A stretch of DNA of 45,373 nt from a virus. The notes below the pieces were generated by a model that worked only from the letters and a program-made list of their open reading frames with translations, did not search any database and was not told where the DNA came from. The stretch's first letter is position 1, and each line of letters starts with the position of its first letter. The DNA lies in the IMG/VR virus record IMGVR_UViG_3300017963_000379, positions 1 through 45,373 of that record. One strand, given 5' to 3'. The position numbers and the translations under genes are program-made. Positions 23,219 through 29,921 of this stretch are shown here, in pieces.

Positions 23219-23287
23219 TTGTTGGATAGATAAAAAGATAGCCAGCTTAAAAGTCTAAGGGTCTTTTTTGTATTGGAGGCAAACATA

Positions 23288-25573
23288 ATGCCTGAATATC
23301 ATGTTGGCTTAAATTTGGAGGAAAGGTTTGAAAGCCCTCCGGCCATCGAAGGCGTTCCTGTTAGTATTGGGGGCATGATTGGCAGAACAAGAAAAGGGAG
23401 TATAGAAAAAGCCATTTATGTTTCTAGTTGGGAAGACTTTGTTCGTAAATGTGGAAAGTTCTACGGAGGCTATGCGCTTCCTAAACATATTTACGGGTTT
23501 TTCCAGAACGAGGGGACAGCGCTTTGGATTTCTCGTGTTTTAACAGAAATGGTTTATGGATCTCTTAGTACAGGCTCTGTTCCAAGCAATAACGCGATTA
23601 CTTGGACAGCAGTTCATCCGGGAGCAGAGAGCAATGGGATTCAGGTTGAACTAGTAGATCCTGGAGGTGCGAGTCAGCCTTTAACTATCACTGTTGCTGT
23701 TACTGCTAGTGGATGGCTTATTACAGTTAGCCTGGAAACAGATGGCGGAAGTGCTATTATTTCTACTGCTGCTCAGGTTATTGCAGCAATTACTGCAGAC
23801 CTGGATGCTTCGGAATTAGTTACTGCTGCTAATACGTCTGGCTCAACTGGCGCAGGAGTTATGACTGCTGCTGTTGCTGCAAATCTTACGGGAGGGGAAG
23901 GTCCTGCTATTGCAGATGGATGGTTTAGGGATAGCGATAATAATGAGGTTGCTGCTTATATCGCTGCTGCAGATCCTGGTCATTGGGGCAGAGCACTTAA
24001 AATTACAACAAGAAAAGCATCAACTACTTTAACTGCTGCGATCAGTGCAGGGGCTACAACGGAAGCAGAAGTAGATTCTGTGGAAGACATAGGGATAGGT
24101 GATCTGCTTATCTTTGATGTTGCAGGAACAATGGATTATGCTGTTGTGCATACGGTGGACGCAACGCTGAAGAAGGTTACTTTTGTTTCTAAAGTTTTTG
24201 GTGCCCATTCTATCGGCGCAACAGTTGAAACTGCTACAACACATGCTGTCGCTACAACTATTGTTAATGCCCTTGCGAATGGTGCAACTAGCGCAGAATT
24301 AAATAATGCAATAGGCGCAAGAAAGGGTAGCCTAATTCATATTAACGACGGAACCACAGAAGTAACGGTTGAAGTTACTAACGTGTCTGGTAATACTATT
24401 TACTTCAGTGCTGTTACTCTTGGTGCAAGTATTGCTGCTGGATCTCCTGCTACGTCTTTCGAATTTGATTTAATTGTGGAAGACGATACTGGAGTTACAG
24501 AGACGCATGAAGATCTTTCCATGGTAGCCAATAATGCTATGAACTACATTAATACAAGGCTGTCTGGAAAATCAAATCAGAGCGACCTTATTGAAGTTAC
24601 GGATCAGGCTCCTGCTAATACTCCTGCTTATCTGGATATCCCGCTTCCTGTTTACCAGATTGCCTTAGAGTATGGCTTAGACGGAGAAACGCCACAGGAT
24701 GCGGATTACATAGGCGTTAGTACGCCAGGTTCTGAAACTGGTATTTATCGCTTTAGTGGCATCAAAGAGATCTCTATGATTGCAACTCCTGGTGTTCTTT
24801 CTAAGCTTGTGCAGGAAAATGGCCATGCTTGGTGCGATGCTAGGCTTCACGCGATTTATATTGGTGCAGTTACACAGTCGATAGATACTATTCAGGAAGC
24901 AAGGGAATTTAGAGATTATACCTTAAATGGTTCTACCATGAGGGGAACTTGTTATTTCCCTTGGCTTACTATTTATGATCCGGAAACTGATTATACAGTT
25001 CTGGAAGACATTTCTCCGGAAGGTTGGGTCATGGGAGTTTGGTCCCGAGTTAGAGCATCTAGGGGATTCCATAAGGCTCCTGCAAACGAAAGAATTATTG
25101 GTATTCAAGGTCTTTCCACAGACGATAAAACAATCGACTGGGACGATGCTTCTATCGCCCTTAATCCTAGGGGAGTTAATATTATTAGAGACGTCCCTGG
25201 ATACGGAATTCGTATTTATGGTGCAAGAACATTATTAAAGGATGCTCGACCGCAGCAGTTTATTCACGTCGTTGCAACATACATTTATAATGAGCAGAGT
25301 ATTCTGAGTAATTCATTATGGGTTCCGTTTGAGCCCCTTAACGACGATACTGTGGAAGACCTGCTCACATCGATTGGGGACTTCTTTTATCAGCAATGGA
25401 ATACTGGAGTTTTTGTGCCAGAGGACGATCCTTCCAAGGCTTACTATGCAGAGGTTATTAGCAGATCAAATAACCTTCTGAAAGTTAAGTTTGGCTTCAA
25501 CGTTGTTGAAACTGCTGAAAAGGTTGTGTTTGTTGCAAGCAACATGAACGGCACTTTAACTGTTGAAGAGTAA
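23288..25573 (+). CDS. tail sheath protein
   Basis: A 761-residue protein. The ATG at 23288 is chosen because GGAGG lies at 23275-23279. The N-terminus (EERFESPPAIEGVPVSIGGMIGRTRKGSIEKAIYVSSWEDF, then GGYALPKHIYGFFQNEGTALWISRV) and C-terminus (GYGIRIYGARTL, QFIHVVATYIYNEQSILSNSLWVPFEPLNDDT) are typical of contractile sheath proteins. A large beta insert lies between (about 105-430). Sheath subunits form the contracting outer tube. The length exceeds that of small sheaths such as P2 FI. Confidence 0.92.
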   Translation: MPEYHVGLNLEERFESPPAIEGVPVSIGGMIGRTRKGSIEKAIYVSSWEDFVRKCGKFYGGYALPKHIYGFFQNEGTALWISRVLTEMVYGSLSTGSVPSNNAITWTAVHPGAESNGIQVELVDPGGASQPLTITVAVTASGWLITVSLETDGGSAIISTAAQVIAAITADLDASELVTAANTSGSTGAGVMTAAVAANLTGGEGPAIADGWFRDSDNNEVAAYIAAADPGHWGRALKITTRKASTTLTAAISAGATTEAEVDSVEDIGIGDLLIFDVAGTMDYAVVHTVDATLKKVTFVSKVFGAHSIGATVETATTHAVATTIVNALANGATSAELNNAIGARKGSLIHINDGTTEVTVEVTNVSGNTIYFSAVTLGASIAAGSPATSFEFDLIVEDDTGVTETHEDLSMVANNAMNYINTRLSGKSNQSDLIEVTDQAPANTPAYLDIPLPVYQIALEYGLDGETPQDADYIGVSTPGSETGIYRFSGIKEISMIATPGVLSKLVQENGHAWCDARLHAIYIGAVTQSIDTIQEAREFRDYTLNGSTMRGTCYFPWLTIYDPETDYTVLEDISPEGWVMGVWSRVRASRGFHKAPANERIIGIQGLSTDDKTIDWDDASIALNPRGVNIIRDVPGYGIRIYGARTLLKDARPQQFIHVVATYIYNEQSILSNSLWVPFEPLNDDTVEDLLTSIGDFFYQQWNTGVFVPEDDPSKAYYAEVISRSNNLLKVKFGFNVVETAEKVVFVASNMNGTLTVEE

Positions 25574-25620
25574 ATAAATTTAAAATGTTAATTTATAATT
25601 AAATTATGGAGGTTTTTAAA

Positions 25621-26139
25621 ATGCCACATATTGTTGGGACCCCAACAGTCGGGCCGGAATTAACAGGGCAGCGCATTGATCCTTATACAGGATTTAGATT
25701 TCGTGTTACTGCTCTTGGTATCCCAAGTTGGAGAATGGGTTTTAAAACAATAGAGGGTATTGAAGACGAGACAGAAGTTGTGGAGTACCGAGAAGGCACA
25801 GACCGTATGACAAAAAAACTGCCCGGTATTCATAAGTCTACAGAGCTTGTTTTAATGCGAGGTAAAAGTAGATCTAATGATCTCCAGATTTGGAGATCAG
25901 AAGTTGCAATCGCACAGAAAAGAGCTGGCTTCCCATCTCCTACGTTTAGACGAACACTTAAGATTCAGATTATGGATGATTTTAATCGTAGGCTTAAAGG
26001 TTTCACTTATGTTGAGTGTTGGCCAAACAAGTTAAGTCATGGGTCTCTGGATGCTGGTACAAGCGATGTTTGGACAGAAAGTGTAACAGTTCAAAACGAG
26101 GGCGGAATTCCAGATCCGTTCGATCTTAAAGAGATTTAA
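25621..26139 (+). CDS. tail tube protein (gp19-like)
   Basis: A 172-residue protein, and the size fits. TGFRFRVTALGIPSWRMGFKTIEGIEDETEVVEYREGTD, KLPGIHKSTELVLMRG and RRLKGFTYVECWPNKLSHGSLDAGTSDVWTESVTVQNEG match the inner-tube family of contractile tails. The ATG at 25621 is chosen over 25606 because the GGAGG falls between them. It follows the sheath directly. The tube is the channel for DNA. Confidence 0.92.
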   Translation: MPHIVGTPTVGPELTGQRIDPYTGFRFRVTALGIPSWRMGFKTIEGIEDETEVVEYREGTDRMTKKLPGIHKSTELVLMRGKSRSNDLQIWRSEVAIAQKRAGFPSPTFRRTLKIQIMDDFNRRLKGFTYVECWPNKLSHGSLDAGTSDVWTESVTVQNEGGIPDPFDLKEI

Positions 26140-26189: not shown

Positions 26190-27041
26190 ATGTCAGAAGA
26201 GAGCAATAATCCGCAAACAAGCGTGACTCCTTTTCCACAAGTTCCGTCTCCTGGCGAAACTTCAAGTTTAATTTTACCAATAGGTTCGTTTGATATTGCT
26301 CAAAACGTTTATAAGTCTGTACGGTATTCTGCTTTTATAGGAAAGGCCAGAAAAAATGTAGCGAAGCCTCAGATACTTAGTAATCCTGGGAAATTAATTA
26401 CTGCTGTTCTAGCAGAGATTATAGAATTTCCGGATATTAAGTATGATGATATTGCAGAAAAGAAATTGCTTTGTCGCCATATGTATTCTGCGGATAGAAC
26501 TGCTTGTGTTCTGGCCATTAGAAAAGTTACAAGACAAACGCCTATCGTGCAGACATTAGATTGTCCGATGTGTGAAGCTAATTTGCAAGTAACCACGACG
26601 CCGGACGAACTACAGTTTGTTTCATTAGAGGAAACAGAGTTTAAGCTAGACGAATCTAGAAAGGAGTATATTTATAAATATGTTTCTTCTAGAAATGATA
26701 TTGTTGAGTTTAAGCTCCCTAGAGGAATTGTTGAAGAAGGTTTAACAAATGCGGAATTAAAAAATATTGGGGAAGCTTCTCAAAAGATTTTAGCATCTTG
26801 CATAGAAACATTTAACGGAGAGAAGATTTACGAAGACTTTTTTGATAATGAATCTACGGGATATATTGATGAACTAACGGATGCGTTTTCAGACGAACAG
26901 CCAGGGTATGATATGAACTTAGTTGCTACTTGCGATAGTTGTGGAACAACAATTGATTATCGGGTAGATGCTGCGGATTTTTTGCTACCGAGTGCTCGCC
27001 GGAAGCGATTCTCCAAACATGGAAGGAAGTCGGCGCATTAG
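26190..27041 (+). CDS. tail assembly chaperone, short (0-frame) form
   Basis: A 283-residue protein between the tail tube and tape measure, the standard place of tail assembly chaperones. It has a Pro/Ser-rich N-terminus, a helical centre and two CxxC pairs (C125-x2-C128 in DCPMC and C248-x2-C251 in TCDSC), which suggest a zinc-binding domain not seen in most such chaperones. The last 18 residues are basic (ARRKRFSKHGRK). The gene contains a T-TTT-TTG slip site near its end that would give a longer product (26190-27169). Confidence 0.7.
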   Translation: MSEESNNPQTSVTPFPQVPSPGETSSLILPIGSFDIAQNVYKSVRYSAFIGKARKNVAKPQILSNPGKLITAVLAEIIEFPDIKYDDIAEKKLLCRHMYSADRTACVLAIRKVTRQTPIVQTLDCPMCEANLQVTTTPDELQFVSLEETEFKLDESRKEYIYKYVSSRNDIVEFKLPRGIVEEGLTNAELKNIGEASQKILASCIETFNGEKIYEDFFDNESTGYIDELTDAFSDEQPGYDMNLVATCDSCGTTIDYRVDAADFLLPSARRKRFSKHGRKSAH

Positions 27042-27169
27042 CAATGATATTTAAAGGTAATTCCTTTCGTGACTTGTGGGCGCTCTCAGATCAAGAAAGA
27101 GAATTCTGGCTTAACTTTGCAGAATGGTGGAATGACGAATTAACTAAGCGCATGAAACAAGGATCATAA
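26190..27169 (+). CDS. tail assembly chaperone, long form by -1 frameshift (GpGT type)
   Basis: After the slip at 26978-26984 the ribosome continues in the -1 frame from 26984 to a TAA at 27167-27169. This adds ATECSPEAILQTWKEVGALA, MIFKGNSFRDLWALSDQERE and FWLNFAEWWNDELTKRMKQGS, to give 326 residues. The extra part is protein-like and helical, and its only ATG (27044) has no ribosome site, so a separate gene is unlikely. In lambda, P2 and Mu relatives the long form (GpGT) binds the tape measure and recruits tube subunits. Confidence 0.72.
26978..26984 (+). promoter_or_regulatory. -1 ribosomal frameshift site (T TTT TTG)
   Basis: A canonical X-XXY-YYZ slippery heptamer in zero frame (GAT TTT TTG). 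A likely stimulatory stem follows after 8 bases: TGC-(TC)-GCCG at 26993-27001 with CGGCGCA at 27031-27037, 7 bp with a two-base bulge. Confidence 0.7.
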
Positions 27170-27173
27170 TAGA

Positions 27174-29921
27174 ATGGCAAATATTGCGCGAAATATGGGA
27201 TTAGGCGTTGTTTTGACAATGCAGAACCGCTTAAGTGGACCTGCTGTAGCAGCTTCGTCTTCTATGGCTATGCTTACTGCACAAACAGAAAAAGCAAGAA
27301 TAGCACAAGTAAGATTTGAAGCTGCTATGGGAGCCGGAAAAATGGCTCTTATAGGAGCAGGAGGGGCCTCCCTTGCGTTAGGCTTAGTTGCAAACGAAGC
27401 AGCTAAGTTTGAAGAAGGGATGGCGAGGGTTGGAGCAGTTTTAGATCCTACAACTGCTCAGTTTAAGAATTTAACAGCAGCAGCAGTTGAAGCAGGAATT
27501 AAAACAAGATGGTCGCCAAGGCAAGCAACAGAAGGATTAAAAGAATTAGCGACAGCGGGCTTTGATGCTACAGAATCCCAGAAAGCTTTGCTTCCTGTTT
27601 TAGATTTAGCTACAGGTTCTTTAGGCCAGTTAGGTGTTGCACAGTCTGCAACTGCTGCAACCGCTGCAATTAGAGGTTTTGGCTTAGAGGCAAAAGATAC
27701 AGGAAGAGTTGTAGATACTCTTTTACGATCTACACAGCTTACAAACTTACAAGCAAGAGATTTTGAAGTTTCTCTCGGTTTAGTTTCTGGGCAAGCAAAA
27801 GCTGCTGGACAGGAATTTGAACATACTGTTGCAATATTAGGTGCGTTAAGAAATACTGGTATGTCTGCATCTGTGTCTGCAACTTCGTTACAAAACGCTT
27901 TAAGAGGTATTGTGCAACCAAAAGCACAAAGGGCTTTAGCAGATTTAGGAGTATCTGTTAAAGACCAGGATGGGAACTTTAGATCTCTTGCGGATATTAT
28001 ATTTGATGTGCAAAAAGCAACGAAAGGAATGGCTGGCGTTCAAAAGTTTATGACATTACAAACTATTTTTGGTGTTAGAGGTTTAAGAGCATATAATGCG
28101 ATTGCAACTATGGGTCAGAAGAAATTTAAAGGCTTAGAAAATAGTTTAAAAAATGCTGCTGGAACAGCAGAAACATTTAGAAAAAAGATCCTATCGTCCC
28201 TAATTGGCAGAATAGCTTTAATGATAGGATCTATTTTTACTTTAGCTAATCAGCTTGGTAAGCCATTGCTTGCTCCTATTAAACTTCTTGTAACTGGCTT
28301 TACAAAATTTTTAAATATTCTTATTAAGCTTACACAATGGTTCCCAATAACAACGGGAATTATTATGAAAGTAGTTGGTTTAACTACTGTAATAACAGGA
28401 ATGATAGGTGTAATGCTTGTTCTTGGTGCTGTGCTTCTAAAGCTTAATTCAACATACAAGCTTTTAGAGAAAGCAAAACTTGCATACTTCTTTGTTTCAA
28501 CGCTTGTATTTGGAATGGAAGGTATGACAAGAAAACAGGTTTTATTAAGTCTTGTTGCGGATAAGCTAAAGCTAACGCACACAGATTTAATGAATGCGAA
28601 AACAAAAGTAAGAATTTTACTAGAAAAAATATTAGGGATAGGTATATCAAGAAATACTTCTATAACCTATGCTAGTGTTGCTGCTGCTTGGGCACAGCGA
28701 GTTTCAACTATTGGTAATAACGTTGCGCTTGGAATTAATAATGCACTTAGGTGGATAAATAATAAATTAACATGGGGCGGAATTAAGGCAATGTTTTTCA
28801 ATGCAAAAGCTGCTGTTATGAACTCTACTGCAATGACAGGAGCATCAGCAGCTACAGGAATGTTTAGTGGAGCATTACAGGGATTAAAAGCTGCTATTGT
28901 TTCTAATCCTATTTTACTTTTAATTGCTGTCGTTGTTCTTGCTGCTGTTGCTTTTGTTAAACTTGCTAAGGCATTTTGGGAAGCAGAAGGGGCAATGAAA
29001 GCTGTGTTTGGGCTTTTATTGTTTGCATTGTTCCCCGCAATAGCCCCATTAATTTTCTTTGCAAAGATATTACATTCTGCTTGGACGAATAATATTGCAG
29101 GAATAAGATCTGCGTTCATGCAGTTAAAAGAAGCAGTAATGTCTATTTTTGCACCAATAGGGAAATTATTTAGTTCGTTAGAAGGTGTAGGGAAGTTAGG
29201 CGGATTATTTAGCTCTGTAATCGGCTTGTTCTTAAAGCCAATAGTTTGGATGATACAAAGGATTTCAATTGCTGCAACTGTGTTAGGGGCAATAATTGAA
29301 ATTGTTGTAAACGAAGTTTCTGCAATACTTGCTCCATTACAACCTGCAATAGATGATTTAAGTGCTGCATTTGATGAGCTTTCTACTTCTGTGTTTGGTT
29401 CTGGCGGAGCTAACCTTGGCTTTTGGAAAAAGTTTGGTAAGGTTGTAAGACAGGTTATTAAATTTACTCTTATACCTCTTGCGAAGGTTGTAGGCTGGAT
29501 AGTTAAAGTAATTACATTTTTAACTAGAGCAGTTAAAGCAATTATTGGGCCTATAAAACAGTTCGCATCTGCAATAGCAGGGATAATAGAAAAAGGTGTT
29601 GGGTTCGTAAGCAATGTTATTTCTGGTGCAGCTTCAATAGTAGGTTTTCAGCATGGTGGAATTGTACCAAAAGGAAAAGCAGTTAATGCCCAGTTTGAAG
29701 GCAAATCAACAGAAGTTGTAATGCCATTACCGTCTGGTATGAGACCTGCTGATTTACAAAGAATATTTAAAGAGGTAACAGAAAGAAAACCAGAAGCTAT
29801 AGCTACTGCTCCTGGGAAAGTTGTAATAGAAAATGTGATTATGTTAGATGGGTTTGAAATTGCTAGATATCAGTCAGAGCAAGATATGATTAATACCATT
29901 AGAGATTTTGGAGAAGGATAA
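27174..29921 (+). CDS. tail tape measure protein
   Basis: A 915-residue protein. Residues about 75-285 match the phage-tail minor/TP901 tape-measure core (AAKFEEGMARVGAVLDPTTAQFKNLTAAAVEAG, ATAGFDATESQKALLPVLDLA, ALRNTGMSASVSATSLQNALRGIVQP). Then come long hydrophobic helices (about 345-435, 575-595, 615-640), and a C-terminal beta region (QHGGIVPKGKAVNAQFEG). By the usual rule of about 0.15 nm per residue the tail would be near 135-140 nm. No lytic-transglycosylase or peptidase motif is seen in it. Confidence 0.92.
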   Translation: MANIARNMGLGVVLTMQNRLSGPAVAASSSMAMLTAQTEKARIAQVRFEAAMGAGKMALIGAGGASLALGLVANEAAKFEEGMARVGAVLDPTTAQFKNLTAAAVEAGIKTRWSPRQATEGLKELATAGFDATESQKALLPVLDLATGSLGQLGVAQSATAATAAIRGFGLEAKDTGRVVDTLLRSTQLTNLQARDFEVSLGLVSGQAKAAGQEFEHTVAILGALRNTGMSASVSATSLQNALRGIVQPKAQRALADLGVSVKDQDGNFRSLADIIFDVQKATKGMAGVQKFMTLQTIFGVRGLRAYNAIATMGQKKFKGLENSLKNAAGTAETFRKKILSSLIGRIALMIGSIFTLANQLGKPLLAPIKLLVTGFTKFLNILIKLTQWFPITTGIIMKVVGLTTVITGMIGVMLVLGAVLLKLNSTYKLLEKAKLAYFFVSTLVFGMEGMTRKQVLLSLVADKLKLTHTDLMNAKTKVRILLEKILGIGISRNTSITYASVAAAWAQRVSTIGNNVALGINNALRWINNKLTWGGIKAMFFNAKAAVMNSTAMTGASAATGMFSGALQGLKAAIVSNPILLLIAVVVLAAVAFVKLAKAFWEAEGAMKAVFGLLLFALFPAIAPLIFFAKILHSAWTNNIAGIRSAFMQLKEAVMSIFAPIGKLFSSLEGVGKLGGLFSSVIGLFLKPIVWMIQRISIAATVLGAIIEIVVNEVSAILAPLQPAIDDLSAAFDELSTSVFGSGGANLGFWKKFGKVVRQVIKFTLIPLAKVVGWIVKVITFLTRAVKAIIGPIKQFASAIAGIIEKGVGFVSNVISGAASIVGFQHGGIVPKGKAVNAQFEGKSTEVVMPLPSGMRPADLQRIFKEVTERKPEAIATAPGKVVIENVIMLDGFEIARYQSEQDMINTIRDFGEG

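Follow-up and report, generated by a model that had tools for sequence, protein, structure and literature searches.

An uncultivated contractile-tailed phage very probably makes short and long forms of a T4 gp26/gp51-type tail assembly chaperone from one gene by a -1 slip on a run of six T's

Frameshifted tail assembly chaperones are known in many phages, and the case described here is in most respects an ordinary one. The lambda G/GT pair supplies the analogy by which short chaperone copies are taken to coat the tape measure protein and long copies to recruit the tail tube subunit, and the G-T frameshift has been described as widely conserved “except T4” (PMC5009743). According to papers that cite the work, Vladimirov et al. 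2022 identified the chaperones of T4-like phages, and the same citing papers relate that some of these phages carry a short gene and a longer fusion gene with no frameshift (PMC12846349, PMC10885494). One of the two, from 2025, regards poly-T signals in T4-like chaperones as already known and argues for a conserved -1 frameshift in Vandenendeviridae (PMC12846349).

We analyzed a window of 45,373 nucleotides (positions 1 to 45,373 of IMG/VR virus record IMGVR_UViG_3300017963_000379), from an uncultivated contractile-tailed phage that very probably uses a -1 slip on six T's to obtain a short and a long tail-building helper protein from one gene. The gene lies, as in the G/GT type of arrangement, between those for a T4 gp19-type tail tube protein upstream (25606 to 26139; PF06841; E = 4.7e-20) and a tape measure protein downstream (27174 to 29921; PF10145; E = 1.2e-34), as identified with Pfam; all three, and the elements of the chaperone gene described below, are on the plus strand. 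Its zero frame (26190 to 27041) encodes 283 aa, assigned by Pfam, PHROG, and predicted-structure comparisons to PF12322 and read here as the short chaperone form (TAC-N). Near its 3′ end, at 26978 to 26984, is the slippery heptamer T TTT TTG, which differs from the lambda heptamer and which, as the initial annotation had proposed, sits in the correct phase (X_XXY_YYZ, zero-frame codons GAT TTT TTG). The -1 frame is closed immediately 5′ of the T run and open from the heptamer to a stop at 27167 to 27169. The resulting extension (26984 to 27169), 61 codons plus the stop, would be fused to residue 265 as the C-domain of the long form (TAC-NC). The predicted product of 265 + 61 = 326 aa agrees with the length originally given, and its predicted junction peptide is ...VDAADFLATECSPEAILQTWK. 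The extension is modeled as helical (pLDDT, 78), with a first helix at residues 6 to 22.

By itself the heptamer is weak evidence or none, because about 110 in-frame XXXYYYZ shifty heptamers occur in this AT-rich window. A scan of the window identified 26978 to 26984 as the sole in-frame heptamer near the 3′ end of a gene and followed by a long -1 extension, bar two sites that were set aside because the -1 frame there merely enters the next, overlapping gene. Taken alone, this combination of 3′-end heptamer and long extension in the window is suggestive. Elsewhere in the window, the tail sheath encoded at 23273 to 25573 is long (766 aa) relative to its family; the sheath domain occupies residues 498 to 654, which suggests a large inserted or N-terminal region. 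A lone tRNA-Thr gene (anticodon TGT) lies near the left end (2091 to 2162).

Relatives were sought among IMG/VR viral contigs with the chaperone, its extension, the tube protein, and the tape measure protein as queries, and the scans repeatedly returned the same five groups; a scan of bacterial genome contigs found no prophage relatives. The distinct set, on which our main reading rests, comprised five sequences: the window and relatives L004, L005, L006 (= L007), and L010. One further contig, L002/L003, was identical to the window in the chaperone region, and L002, which may come from the same virus population, was excluded as independent evidence. The chaperones of the four diverged relatives are 39 to 46% identical to that of the window, and all four, like the window, keep GGATTTTTT followed by A or G in the same phase. 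GAT TTT TTG or GAT TTT TTA is thus present in 5/5 sequences, for which the joint probability is about 2e-5 when each sequence's own codon usage is applied and the sequences are taken as independent; for L004, with 55% GC, the probability of GAT TTT TTR is 0.012 alone. The -1 frame is open in 4/4 relatives, ends at the start of the tape measure gene, and encodes a domain 38 to 51% identical to that of the window. Because the heptamer is conserved in five diverged sequences, we judged it to be nonrandom. The -1 frameshift proposed from the window alone could have been refuted by relatives that lack the heptamer or give the downstream part its own start; the four relatives did not refute it, and they support a programmed -1 shift in the chaperone gene that separates tail tube from tape measure.

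The same relatives bear on two explanations that draw on the homopolymer itself. A sequencing or assembly error could have split a single gene by a one-base indel at such a position, an explanation that is hardly credible and that the relatives refute, as four diverged contigs repeat the arrangement and also conserve the zero-frame tail. Slippage of RNA polymerase, rather than the ribosome, on the run of six T's would likewise suit a homopolymer and would generate mixed frames. We consider this highly improbable: every -1 case checked has the run in T TTT TTN, the phase for tandem slippage; it stays at six in L006 and L005; and slippage in bacteria has usually been reported on runs longer than six T's.

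Past the slip site, both frames are under constraint for about 50 nt. In this stretch (26985 to 27041), the zero frame encodes the basic tail LPSARRKRFSKHGRKSAH while the -1 frame encodes the first part of the extension, and both are conserved over the first 15 codons. We held the zero-frame protein constant and redrew synonymous codons for these 15 codons in the five sequences (20,000 draws). The similarity observed among the -1 frames (BLOSUM sum, 467, versus 9 ± 43 expected) was reached in 0/20,000 draws, and all five -1 frames were open in 0.55% of redraws. The converse test gave a zero-frame similarity of 438 versus 83 ± 33 expected. Shared ancestry does not explain this conservation, because silent sites outside the overlap are saturated: synonymous codon identity was 0.378 in the chaperone (0.343 expected at saturation), 0.275 at the tape measure start (0.255 expected), and 0.396 in the downstream -1 part (0.371 expected). 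Within the overlap, the corresponding values were 0.58 versus 0.35 for the -1 frame and 0.41 versus 0.24 for the zero frame. Differences at wobble positions of the -1 frame are also fewer within the overlap (0.35) than in the downstream part (0.59; P = 0.003). Together, the conservation tests indicate protein-level constraint on the -1 frame that starts at the slip site and covers the part upstream of an ATG at 27044.

Beyond the slip site, the short form has a conserved basic tail of 15 to 18 residues (6 or 7 K/R, no D/E), and this zero-frame tail is the one unusual feature of the locus. As the overlapping -1 frame does not account for all of the zero-frame conservation, the tail LPSxGxRRFxRRGGR, found in the short form only, could be a functional element, in which case the slip would choose between two competing C-termini rather than simply between stopping and continuing; we advance this tentatively, with somewhat less than even confidence. 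Cyanophages, whose zero frame ends immediately, served as a control; directly past the slip they show only slight constraint at wobble positions (0.50 versus 0.42 expected). This control leans toward protein-level selection on the basic tail and leaves some room for an RNA-level signal.

The ATG at 27044 opens a 41-aa reading frame (27044 to 27169) within the extension. Inspection agreed with the earlier remark that it has no ribosome site: a purine-rich stretch is the only candidate and is too distant upstream to make a good one. An ATG occurs near the zero-frame stop in 4/5 sequences (the window, L005, L006, and L010), at no more than 3 nt from it in the window and close to it in L005 as well. 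Translational coupling of this start to the stop (TAG CA ATG) would yield two proteins, the second a free 41-aa peptide. In L004, CAC replaces the ATG and that frame has no earlier start codon. The ATG lies at the end of the first predicted helix, so that a start there would truncate this helix of the domain, and the heptamer would be left without explanation. Because the -1 frame is conserved as protein upstream of the ATG and the ATG is missing in one relative, independent initiation alone is insufficient; we judge that this reading frame is not the main route to the extension and that an arrangement of two separate proteins is unlikely. Reinitiation could possibly add a free 41-aa C-domain as a minor product.

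A hairpin can form downstream of the slip site, as the initial annotation noted, but its energy is not unusual relative to shuffles; folding z-scores for the 80 nt downstream were -0.65 (window), -0.90, 0.27, -0.01, and -0.04 in the five sequences. The RNAalifold consensus gave no covariation support for the stem (covariation term, 0.04) and paired the slip run itself. Being neither significant by shuffles nor conserved, the stem-loop was rejected as a stimulator. By eye, no upstream ribosome-binding-like stimulator was conserved in the set of five. The slip may rest on the run of six T's alone or on some element unrecognized here.

The chaperone carries two CxxC pairs, which had been taken as an oddity that might mark a zinc-containing branch of the GpG/GpGT system. 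Profile and structure searches instead place the protein in PF12322 (T4_baseplate; the T4 gp26/gp51 family), which it matches with E = 1.8e-6 and 28.2 bits (curated cutoff, 24.5); L006 is also above the cutoff (29.0 bits), and L004 (16.8 bits) and L005 (18.8 bits) fall below it. The window protein also matches phrog_150, a baseplate hub family (E = 4.5e-5), and an AlphaFold model of its N-part (pLDDT, 70) matches T4-like baseplate hub proteins best (E = 2.4e-13; TM, 0.6). Solved structures gave no match in sequence or fold. Lambda GpG-type families were absent from the Pfam and PHROG matches of the window protein and its close relatives, and the protein of phage BRock had a single, chance-level match to phrog_508 (E = 0.26). 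The cysteine pairs (C125 and C128, 26562 to 26573; C248 and C251, 26931 to 26942) are invariant in the five sequences and present in many PF12322 proteins, including those of C48C1, RHph_I1_9, Atu_ph07, SP-15 (where the second pair is spaced CxxxxC), LIS04, GXN1, BRock, and GiJojo. Since they are common among the sampled non-Tevenvirinae members of PF12322, they are a family trait and not the marker of a special branch.

On this sequence evidence, it is very likely that a T4 gp26/gp51-type tail assembly chaperone is made in two forms through a -1 slip at T TTT TTG. We infer that the slip is ribosomal, and likewise its efficiency: the majority of ribosomes would continue in the zero frame and produce the 283-aa short form, and a minority would move back one base with the Phe- and Leu-tRNAs on TTT TTG, reading T TTT TTG as TTT TTT. 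Slipped ribosomes would then follow the -1 frame to the 326-aa long form, in which a 61-residue helical C-domain would take the place of the short form's 18-residue basic tail. If the lambda pair is a guide, many short copies would coat the tape measure protein and the few long copies would recruit the tail tube subunit.

Comparable sites recur elsewhere in PF12322. A -1 extension follows T TTT TTC in P-SSM2, S-SSM7, P-SSM3, and Atu_ph07, T TTT TTT in C48C1, and T TTT TTG in Rhizobium phage RHph_I1_9; several annotations list the extension on its own, as a small “gp51” or “assembly catalyst.” In profile comparisons, the cyanophage/Rhizobium extension matches the C terminus of T4 gp51 (E = 2.7e-11). 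The window extension matches the cyanophage extension (E = 5.8e-4; 2/200 column shuffles as good) and the Streptomyces/SP-15 extension (E = 0.0012; 0/200 shuffles as good), and its direct match to the gp51 C terminus is weak (E = 0.035, or 0.044 in another comparison).

Other PF12322 phages, namely SP-15, LIS04, GXN1, BRock, and GiJojo, carry the extension in the +1/-2 frame and probably use a +1/-2 slip. Immediately 5′ of the zero-frame stop, SP-15, LIS04, and GXN1 share NCC CGA TTY, which contains the slow CGA codon and is a candidate +1 frameshift site. In BRock and GiJojo, the extension overlaps CTG TTT CGC GAA CTC TAA/TGA at the end of the PF12322 gene and is annotated as a separate open reading frame whose start site differs between records. 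In Vibrio phages YC and K386, a gp51-like -1 extension follows the PF12322 gene with no canonical slippery heptamer, possibly reflecting a coupled start or a noncanonical slip.

For the window phage, two annotations are corrected by this analysis: the “baseplate hub” label conceals a chaperone, and the small open reading frame ahead of the tape measure gene very probably encodes the C-terminal part of a fusion protein. The locus resembles lambda G/GT and its P2 equivalent in position, two-form logic, and -1 slip (PMC5009743) and differs from them in that its protein has no detected sequence relation to GpG. It is also like the proposed -1 frameshift of Vandenendeviridae/Andersonviridae (phage Adele), which lies at a conserved GTTTTT between TAC-N and tape measure; those phages are another family, and the likeness concerns the frameshift arrangement (PMC12846349). 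Closer still are the cyanophages P-SSM2, S-SSM7, and P-SSM3 and the Rhizobium/Agrobacterium phages, in which the PF12322-type chaperone ends in ..(D/S)FF or DFL, the TTTTTT run has the same phase, and the -1 extension is homologous to the gp51 C-domain. In those phages the zero frame stops 0 to 2 codons past the slip, whereas in the window phage it continues for 15 to 18 conserved basic residues, making the dual-coded tail a small, testable oddity. T4 itself has a PF12322 short/long pair, gp26 (TAC-N; E = 8.8e-64) and gp51 (TAC-NC; E = 3.9e-52), with the C-terminal domain in gp51 and none in gp26. That pair is encoded by two separate genes, 26 and 51, on opposite strands, whereas the window phage has one gene with a slip site. 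PF12322, often called the exception without frameshifting, thus very probably uses a -1 slip on six T's in the window group, the cyanophages, and the Rhizobium/Agrobacterium phages and probably a +1/-2 slip in others, so that the two-gene layout of T4 looks like one solution among several.
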